A stretch of 64,000 nucleotides of DNA, taken from positions 98,701-162,700 of the forward strand of contig NZ_QPGR01000002.1 of NCBI RefSeq assembly GCF_004323845.1. The letters run 5' to 3'. The notes below the pieces were generated by a model. That model saw only the letters and a list, made by a program, of their open reading frames with translations. It ran no database searches and had not been told where the DNA came from. Of this stretch, positions 28,541 through 30,848 are shown in pieces (position 1 is the stretch's first letter; every line of letters starts with the position of its first letter). This DNA comes from Campylobacter novaezeelandiae (GTDB lineage: Bacteria > Campylobacterota > Campylobacteria > Campylobacterales > Campylobacteraceae). Both the position numbers and the translations under genes were made by a program.

Positions 28541-29017
28541 TTGAAAATTTTAGGAATTGATCCAGGAACTCGTTTTTGTGGATATGCTATTATAGAAAGT
28601 AATAAAAATAAAAATACTCTTATAGAAGCAGGACTGATAAAGATTAAGCCTTCAACGCTTCAATATCAAATTACAGAGCTTTGCGAAGGATTAGATTTGA
28701 TTTTTAAAAATCATCAATTTGATGAGGTGGCTATAGAAGATATATTTTTTGCTTATAATCCAAAAACAGTTCTAAAACTTGCCCAATTTCGTGGAGCTTT
28801 GAGTTTAAAAATCTTACAAATTCATGGTGAATTTAAAGAATATACTCCTTTACAAATTAAAAAAGCGATAACAGGGAAAGCAAAAGCAACAAAAGAACAA
28901 GTTGCTTTTATGGTAAAAAGACTTTTAGGAATTTCAAAAGATATTAAACCTTTAGATATTACAGATGCTCTTGCCGTAGCTTTAACACATGGAGCAAATT
29001 TAAGAATGAAATATTAG
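28541..29017 (+). CDS. ruvC: Holliday junction resolvase RuvC
   Basis: The 158-aa protein begins MKILGIDPGTRFCGYA, with the first catalytic Asp, and has the acidic residues in AIEDIFFAYNPKT and the C-terminal DITDALAVALTH. It starts with TTG, preceded by AAGGTTTAT. It resolves Holliday junctions with RuvAB. Its end overlaps the end of the methylase gene on the other strand by four bases. Confidence 0.96.
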   Translation: MKILGIDPGTRFCGYAIIESNKNKNTLIEAGLIKIKPSTLQYQITELCEGLDLIFKNHQFDEVAIEDIFFAYNPKTVLKLAQFRGALSLKILQIHGEFKEYTPLQIKKAITGKAKATKEQVAFMVKRLLGISKDIKPLDITDALAVALTHGANLRMKY

Positions 29018-30108
29018 TTTTTAACTAAAATATAAAGTTGTTCATGAACATAAATAGATCGATTTTTAAGATTTCTACTAGCTCTAAAGGTATTGTATTT
29101 TTGTTCCAATAAAAAGCATTTTCCAAGATTTTGTAAGCGTTTTAAAAAATTTTCTTTTTTTACAAAGCCTTCACAATTATAAGATAATAAAATAATTTTA
29201 GCTTTTAAATTATAAATTAAGTCAAATAAAGCATTTTCAGCATTTTTTTGACTATTATAAATACTACGATTCCAATCTTTTGGAATTCCACTTATATTTG
29301 AAATTTCTTTGGGTTCTTTATAGTTTGCAATTAAATTTAGCATAAAATAATTTGAACTATAAGGATGTTGATTATAAGGGGGATCAAGATAAATTACATC
29401 TATATTATCAAGTTCTTTTGCAAGTATATTTGCATCTTTTTGTATAACTTTAAATTCACAAAAAAAATTTGAAAAAATAGGCATTTTAAGTTCTATTTCG
29501 CCTTTTATACGTTTAAGAGCATTACCGGCTTCTCCTCCAAATTTTCCTATGCCATTTTTTCCTTTGTAAAAACCTTTAAAAACTCCACTTGTATTAGAAT
29601 GAACACTTGCTTCGTAGATTAAAGGTGCTATAAAAAAATGTCTTAATTCTTCTGGAATTTCATTATCAATTTTTGCTCGCAAGGTATCAAGATACATTGC
29701 ATTATTAATGGTATAAAAAACTCTCTCATCTTTTTGAATAAAATTTTCATCTTTTGGAGCATAAAGTTTACTAATAAAACCTTTTTGAAGTTCTAAATTT
29801 TGAGTTAAATTTTTATGATATTTTTTTATAAGTTCATTTAAATTTTTATTTTTATTGCTAAGATAGCATTTGTTAATAACTCTTGAATAATCTTCTAAAT
29901 CATTAGCTATAATGAAATTTGAGTGTGCCTTTGCAAAACGACTAACGATACCTGAACCGCTAAAAATATCACAAAAGCTAAATTTATCTTTTTTTAATTC
30001 TTTTTTAGCAAAATTAAATCCTTGTTCTAAAAAGCCTAAAAGCGATCTTTTATTGCCAAGATAAGTAATGATTTGTTCTTTTAAAAAGTTAGGGTTTTCA
30101 GTAGTCAT
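29014..30108 (-). CDS. ctsM: N6-adenine DNA methyltransferase (CtsM/Cj0208-like), modification part of an R-M pair
   Basis: This 364-aa protein has the AdoMet site CDIFSGSGIVSRFAK near residue 46 and the catalytic DPPYNQHPYSSN near residue 242. The order motif I then IV, with a large domain between, is that of Dam-like class alpha enzymes. It resembles C. jejuni Cj0208 (CtsM), which I recall as an orphan methylase acting on RAATTY and aiding transformation. Here it begins one base after the stop of an EcoRI-family endonuclease gene. There is no homopolymer tract in it, so it should stay on when the nuclease gene switches. Specificity is inferred from the homologue. Confidence 0.82.
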   Translation of the reverse strand: MTTENPNFLKEQIITYLGNKRSLLGFLEQGFNFAKKELKKDKFSFCDIFSGSGIVSRFAKAHSNFIIANDLEDYSRVINKCYLSNKNKNLNELIKKYHKNLTQNLELQKGFISKLYAPKDENFIQKDERVFYTINNAMYLDTLRAKIDNEIPEELRHFFIAPLIYEASVHSNTSGVFKGFYKGKNGIGKFGGEAGNALKRIKGEIELKMPIFSNFFCEFKVIQKDANILAKELDNIDVIYLDPPYNQHPYSSNYFMLNLIANYKEPKEISNISGIPKDWNRSIYNSQKNAENALFDLIYNLKAKIILLSYNCEGFVKKENFLKRLQNLGKCFLLEQKYNTFRASRNLKNRSIYVHEQLYILVKN

Positions 30109-30109
30109 A

Positions 30110-30848
30110 TTAAAAGATATAATACCTTAAAGATGTTTCAGCAATTTCTTTCATAATTTCAAACATTTCATTTACTTCCCATTTGTTTTCTCTAAAATAC
30201 ATACTAACAGGAGAAAAATAATTATGATCGCTATTGCCATCTGCTTTAAAAATATAAGTTTTATTTAGATAGTAAAATTCATTTAAAACATTTAATTTTG
30301 CTAAAACGGATTTTTCACTGCTTGCGAAATCACATCCCCAGCCAAAACATACAAAAGGAGTTATTTTTTCATGATTTAACATGGCTTTAATACCTGTTAA
30401 ATTTTTTCCTAGTCTTTCTATAGCATTTCCAGTAGCTTGTTTGTCTTTACCTTCTTTTTTTCTAATATCATTGGTTCCTTGTCTTTTAGCTTCTGTAATC
30501 AATAGAACTTTTTTATAATTCTCATCATCTTTTTTTCTTAAAAATAATACTCCACCATCTGGTTTTATAGTATTATCTATAAAATTCATATCAAATTGAG
30601 CGCGAATTTTTGTTGATTTAATATTATTAATCATAAAAGAAATTTCTATTTTTTTCTCTATTTCAAAATAATATTTACCATCTATAAAATTTGCAACCCC
30701 CCCCCCCATATCCATTTGATGAAAATCTTTTTTCTAAATATTTTTTAGTTTTTTGCATAGCTAGGTCTATATTCAAATCATCTTTTTTTGAATGTAAATT
30801 CTTTGCTTTATGTTGATTTTTATTTTCTATTAAATTTTTTCTTGGCAT
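30110..30848 (-). CDS. EcoRI-family restriction endonuclease, phase-variable, OFF in this copy
   Basis: From the ATG at 30848 the frame reads about 47 codons and then meets a G11 tract (30697-30707). With eleven G it runs to a stop shortly afterwards. With ten or thirteen G it would continue into the 201-codon frame ending at 30110. That frame has EcoRI landmarks in order: IKPDGG (catalytic Asp), ITEAKRQG (EAK catalytic Glu and Lys), ATGNAIERLGKN and the late MFEIM. The full product would be about 246 aa, somewhat shorter than EcoRI (277). It lies 11 bases after infC and one base before the methylase. The internal ATG at 30715 has no visible ribosome site, so I do not treat it as the start. 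Confidence 0.85.
30697..30707 (-). repeat. Poly-G tract (G11 on the coding strand) in the endonuclease gene
   Basis: Eleven C on the plus strand lie about 47 codons into the endonuclease gene. Length 11 puts the upstream and downstream frames out of register by one base. Loss of one G restores a single open frame. Confidence 0.93.

Follow-up and report, generated by a model that had tools for sequence, protein, structure and literature searches.

A candidate EcoRI-family nuclease gene with a poly-G tract beside a CtsM-type methylase gene in Campylobacter novaezeelandiae

Described systems and the Campylobacter locus

The methylase CtsM of Campylobacter jejuni (M.CjeNI, Cj0208) and the EcoRI restriction-modification (RM) system are the described systems closest to the locus reported here. 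The product of M.CjeNI is RA-m6A-TTY (PMC3526280), and DNA uptake by C. jejuni needs the CtsM methyl mark (PMC8437040; PMC8468864, where the motif is written RATTY); these and all later papers are cited from the parts of their text at hand. The cj0208 gene, termed there an EcoRI-like methylase, is up 2.9-fold late in phage infection (PMC6024767). In the window, that is, the whole stretch of 64,000 nucleotides analyzed here from Campylobacter novaezeelandiae (contig NZ_QPGR01000002.1), a D12-class adenine methylase gene of CtsM type (M) directly follows a split gene for a putative EcoRI-family endonuclease (R). We consider it likely that R and M form an RM system with an AATT-core target, RAATTY, in which a poly-G switch sits on the nuclease only. 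The data behind this are sequence homology and the predicted fold, the pairing of the two genes, remnants of R in relatives, recurrence of the tract and purifying selection; from them we infer activity, target and reversible switching.

The locus resembles the EcoRI system in the predicted nuclease fold of R, its catalytic residues and inner AATT readers, and in the pairing of the nuclease with an adjacent adenine methylase. It differs in R itself (~24-32% identity, 242 aa versus 277 aa, Gln at the place of Met137, and a G run) and in the partner, which is of the D12 class (PF02086) here and EcoRI_methylase (PF13651) for EcoRI of E. coli; judged by its partner, R does not belong with the EcoRI isoschizomers proper (GAATTC, with M.EcoRI). 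With CtsM it shares a D12-type methylase adjoining infC, the likeness being drawn from class and locus; Cj0208 is positioned after infC (Cj0207) in C. jejuni. Unlike CtsM in the reference strains, for which the available parts of PMC3526280 and PMC8627207 name no nuclease partner, M sits with an EcoRI-like gene. The phase-variable type IIG protein Cj0031 of C. jejuni is likewise a switched restriction gene in Campylobacter, but it methylates and cuts in one protein and both activities switch (PMC4889913), whereas here the tract lies in the nuclease alone. The pair on Paracoccus marcusii plasmid pCP157_17 also has a D12-class DNA adenine methylase beside an EcoRI-family gene; there, however, the methylase comes first, and its R, which shares 46% identity with the query across 79% of its length, has no run of at least 7 G. 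EcoRI and CtsM are already known, and a nuclease partner for CtsM is apparently undescribed: no description of an EcoRI-like one turned up among the open-licence PubMed Central papers listed or in the parts of them at hand, and a REBASE entry is quite possible. Nor do the parts at hand of PMC8468864, PMC8437040 and related literature state an origin for the lone self-marking methylase.

All three genes lie on the minus strand: infC is followed by R (30848 down to 30110) and R by M, which starts one base past the R stop. The features are as follows.

30675..30848, minus strand: R, N-terminal frame of the EcoRI-like endonuclease (ATG at 30848, 57 codons plus stop)
30697..30707, minus strand: tract of exactly 11 G (G11) closing the R frame, the presumed phase-variation switch
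30110..30715, minus strand: R, downstream frame of 201 aa from an internal ATG, with the catalytic and recognition regions
30485..30559, minus strand: putative catalytic residues of R by alignment, namely Asp of KPDGG and Glu and Lys of EAK (EcoRI Asp91, Glu111, Lys113)
30413..30439, minus strand: putative recognition stretch QATGNAIER of R by alignment (EcoRI Met137 to Arg145; contacts after PMC3806743)
29014..30108, minus strand: M, intact D12-class adenine methylase of 364 aa (CtsM / M.CjeNI type)
30860..31378, minus strand: infC, upstream neighbor and marker of the infC-(R)-M locus

This layout bears out an earlier note made from the DNA alone, which had placed the N-terminal start, the G11 tract and the one-base spacing of M at these positions; IKPDGG, EAK, GNAIER and MFEIM, which it listed as EcoRI landmarks, are present in the 30110-30715 frame in EcoRI order. 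The N-terminal frame matches positions 5-49 of the family profile hidden Markov model (E 1.4e-11), starts resembling it are found in relatives, and downstream of the G11 run the conserved EcoRI-like part resumes in a different frame. R, which has one match in its own genome, is in the closed state in the sequenced isolate; the internal start at 30715 may give a truncated R.

The nuclease, the methylase and their pairing

R falls in the EcoRI family whether judged by sequence profile, by comparison of profile with profile or by its predicted fold. The profile search proposed in the earlier note gave a match to Pfam PF02963 (EcoRI) with E 2.9e-16 and 59.8 bits versus a curated cut-off of 22, and the match to EcoRI in the PDB has E 1.1e-12. 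Membership of the EcoRI endonuclease family is thus supported, with cleavage predicted. No NCBIfam model matched R at E 0.01, and no match to it was found in phages at E 1e-5 (50,697 records).

For a comparison of residues, 20 R proteins were used, most of them from 37 matches, leaving out fragments, near-duplicates and closed copies except the one in the window. The PD-(X)n-E-X-K residues and GNAIER are present in all 20, and the counterparts of EcoRI Asp91, Glu111, Lys113, Gln115, Gly140, Asn141, Ala142, Glu144, Arg145, Lys148 and Asn149 are identical to EcoRI in every one. The position of Met137 is occupied by Gln in 20/20 of these proteins and by Met in 8/8 EcoRI-type proteins. According to the part of PMC3806743 at hand, Glu144 and Arg145 of EcoRI read the first A and Arg145 the second, Gly140, Ala142 and Gln115 contact T, Met137 lies near the sugar of the second T, and Arg200 reads the outer G. 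Since the inner AATT readers are conserved, R should read the AATT core as EcoRI does.

M matches Pfam PF02086 (D12 class) at E 2.3e-21 and PADLOC MTase_II at E 4.8e-138, and the motifs FSGSG and DPPY were read by eye; no solved structure was found for it by sequence at E 0.01. A CtsM-like methylase also follows infC and R in the records titled C. jejuni 414 and GP013. Among 16 loci outside Campylobacter, the gene directly before R is a CtsM-like D12 methylase in ten and an N6_Mtase in five, and one ends at the contig border, so that a methylase adjoins R in 15 of the 15 loci having sequence on that side, although several Treponema loci are closely related and the 15 pairings are therefore non-independent. 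In these loci M precedes R, opposite to the arrangement in the window. Pfam runs cover the methylase class in three of the D12 loci (L054, L061, L064) and in all five N6_Mtase loci. The R subfamily is found beside CtsM-like methylases in metagenome-assembled genomes (MAGs) of Treponema and other spirochaetes, a Clostridia MAG and the Paracoccus plasmid. The identities of R and M are correlated (r = 0.80 over 45 pairs from nine genus genomes and one genome of another genus, G128; none of 5000 permutations as high). Conserved adjacency of nuclease and methylase across lineages supports a reading of the two genes as a type II RM pair.

The R genes paired with N6_Mtase (L056, L057, L058, L069, L070) belong to alphaproteobacterial, vampirovibrio and gammaproteobacterial MAGs and a phytoplasma genome; this short methylase is of another class, and one nuclease type is thus paired with two methylase classes. 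EcoRI-type relatives carry EcoRI_methylase, identified by Pfam in L128 and L135 and by annotation in L136, L138 and L139; none is listed in the gene table of L137.

Distribution in Campylobacter and loss or gain of the nuclease

M was matched in 50/50 genomes of the genus, as a full-length frame in 48, broken in one (G006) and cut by a contig end in one (G045). R was matched in 17/50 by a first search and in 18/50 by profile. It is one open frame in five genomes (G014, G019 or C. jejuni GP013, G024, G032 or MIT 97-5078, and G047), split solely at a pure G run in three (the window genome G000, G012, and G034 or LR291e), split with an interrupted run in G046, broken in G016 (C. jejuni 414) and G035 (TTU_617), cut by a contig end in G042, and present as fragments in six (G036, G037, G039, G040, G041, G044). 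Weak DNA traces of R were seen in G002 (8.2 bits) and G004 (5.0 bits), the best score in 960 block-shuffled copies being 2.6 bits (48 gaps scanned), and no trace was found in 30/50 genomes, one of which (G045) is unreadable at the locus. G006 (L074) is the sole genome of the 50 with a broken M, which has several stops, and has no R trace either. The earlier note had suggested the complete ancestral form of a system known only as a lone methylase in C. jejuni. The fragments of R in genomes retaining M speak for the first part; the second needs correcting, since two records with C. jejuni in their titles carry R, open in GP013 and broken in 414.

Between infC and M lie 666-755 bases in genomes that have R (where infC was at hand), 191-279 bases in 4/6 genomes with R fragments, and 39-68 bases in 21 of the 30 genomes that show no trace; among the remaining nine it is 117 and 209 in two and 948-2612 bases in six, with one unread. 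We also noticed that the last 12-46 codons of R before M survive in all six fragment genomes (L013, L014, L015, L079, L090, L091), perhaps because expression signals of M lie there. A promoter scan gave 19 hits versus 13.7 (standard deviation 4.2) in shuffles, a level too near that of the shuffles to name a promoter for M.

In the family, M was found in 134/154 genomes at E 1e-40. R occurs in three of 32 M loci (30 genomes) of other Campylobacteraceae genera, with M first in G050 and G093 and in the order infC-R-M in G128; in G054, whose M is nearly that of its counterpart in G050, M is not followed by R. An order-wide sample gave an R match in 10/398 genomes at E 1e-10. Plasmid pCh1 of C. hyointestinalis (L131:3301-3402) encodes a stretch with 82% identity to the C-terminal 34 residues of R, at a place where no gene is listed and next to a PIN-domain gene.

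On a tree of M (89 of 94 proteins, five short ones dropped), with G002, G004 and G041 counted as lacking R, R is wholly lost 16 times, or 13 times with weak branches collapsed, a count that presupposes a single gain and hence does not test it independently. The R fragments, which lie between infC and M or just before M, speak for loss. The converse, in which a lone M was there first and R entered the space between it and infC on several occasions, is improbable in our judgment, yet it accounts for several observations. In G128 (L121) the R gene, with a G8 run, shares 96% identity with the R of G019 over the compared part, which points to transfer between genera, and in two close pairs of genomes synonymous divergence is lower in R than in M, which hints at transfer as well. 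The gap also takes up other restriction genes: that of G002 (L089:2852-4511) holds a further DNA methylase together with a nuclease of DpnII type (PF04556), and that of G031 an Eco57I-like methylase gene. The infC-M locus is apparently one that exchanges restriction systems, and these observations together count against a pure loss story. Against repeated gain stand the strong R fragments in six genomes and weak traces in two, the opening of the DpnII-type gene of G002 with the first dozen codons of R, and the overall agreement of R and M identities.

The G tract, the state of the gene and the proposed mechanism

A G11 run is expected by chance in ~9e-5 copies per strand of the window (minus-strand G content 0.157, independent bases, hand calculation). 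The genome is rich in such tracts, with 55 runs of at least 9 G (collapsed from 96 overlapping matches), six of them in the window including that of R; the other five, of 9-11 G (1032-1042, 41269-41277, 42418-42427, 43674-43683, 57038-57046), are possibly further phase-variable sites. At this position, give or take a few codons, 5/12 readable copies of R (eleven from the genus and G128) carry a pure run of at least 8 G, with lengths of 11 in the window, 8 in G012, 9 in G034, 12 in G032 and 8 in G128, as compared between species with one isolate each. Switching would be a lineage trait, because the run is absent from four other copies (G014, G016, G024, G047) and interrupted in three (G019, G035, G046). 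The phase-variable switch proposed in the earlier note thus gains indirect support from constant place, varying length between genomes and purifying selection.

It is also unlikely, though by no means absurd, that the window copy of R is a pseudogene on its way to loss, the G run being one of several lesions to follow, and that only M works. The nearest relative, G035, has a truly broken R with frameshifts and an 11-nt deletion, and eight genomes of the genus have fragments or traces alone in addition to the 30 with none. The window copy, however, has no lesion other than the G run. The ratio of nonsynonymous to synonymous change (pN/pS) of R against nine relatives is 0.12-0.21, versus 0.26-0.33 for M, ratios made rough by the high pS of most pairs. 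When G024 and G019 serve as outgroups and only the part of R downstream of the run is counted, the split from G035 was followed by one substitution in the window line and by 12 plus two deletions in G035, with four unresolved; for M the counts are 23, 20 and 24, respectively. The contrast of 1 versus 12 in R with 23 versus 20 in M fits a gene recently in use, and the decay downstream of the tract that the earlier note named as a sign against its view is not seen. Moreover, R is open in MIT 97-5078 with a G12 run and in GP013 with an interrupted one.

That R and M are mere neighbors with different targets, R cutting another AATT-core or relaxed site and M acting independently, is highly improbable: most genus genomes and most family loci read have retained M but not R, so that M has its own role, and the change of Met137 to Gln and the uncertain outer reader would also agree with it, but the R subfamily lies beside CtsM-like methylases in opposite order in spirochaete and Clostridia MAGs and the Paracoccus plasmid, R and M identities are correlated, and the M.CjeNI site RAATTY (PMC3526280, part at hand) contains the EcoRI AATT core.

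Besides the broken R of the nearest relative, the rough ratios and the related Treponema loci, several points weigh against a switched RM system acting on RAATTY. Four of the five tract-bearing copies are closed, G032 being the sole open one. G046, outside the 20 proteins compared, has DNAIER for GNAIER and is split with an interrupted run. No avoidance of RAATTY is seen in the window. The counterpart of Arg200 is an invariant Glu by hhalign and a conserved Lys/Arg by MAFFT, a disagreement that makes any exact target, with its outer base, tentative; the model of R is weakest in this region (residues 176-204, predicted local distance difference test score <50).

If R and M do form a switched RM system, M would methylate RAATTY (RA-m6A-TTY) constantly, and R would cut unmethylated AATT-core DNA, most likely RAATTY itself. 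The poly-G run in the N-terminal part of R would slip at replication, opening and closing the frame, so that restriction toggles in subpopulations while protection persists; R-open cells would cut unmarked incoming duplex DNA. In most genus genomes read, R would be gone and M left alone, as CtsM is in C. jejuni. RAATTY sites are frequent (8.5 per kb of the window), and an active R would therefore be tolerable only under full methylation and a switch on the nuclease alone the safer arrangement. Phage avoidance was tried as evidence on the target and set aside: in two 50-kb pieces of Campylobacter phages RAATTY is at 0.94 and 0.80 of Markov expectation, and the counts decide nothing because another palindrome, RAGCTY, varies as much (0.75).

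The host has a ComEC-type gene. More tentatively, one might imagine, with considerable doubt, that self-recognition by methylation in uptake grew from an EcoRI-type RM system: in species retaining R, the switch would give a clonal population "open" and "closed" cells, of which some cut any unmarked duplex DNA and the rest spare it, the mark would serve as both shield and password, and repeated deletion of R would have left the password alone.

The finding suggests that the CtsM-type methylase began as the protective half of an RM system whose nuclease many relatives have lost. An EcoRI-like R beside M, open, closed by G or fragmentary across Campylobacter, gives the origin of this methylase a testable form. 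Such a switch, confined to the nuclease, would let protection continue without a break, and the altered contact residue makes this subfamily of EcoRI relatives useful for studying target change in type II enzymes.
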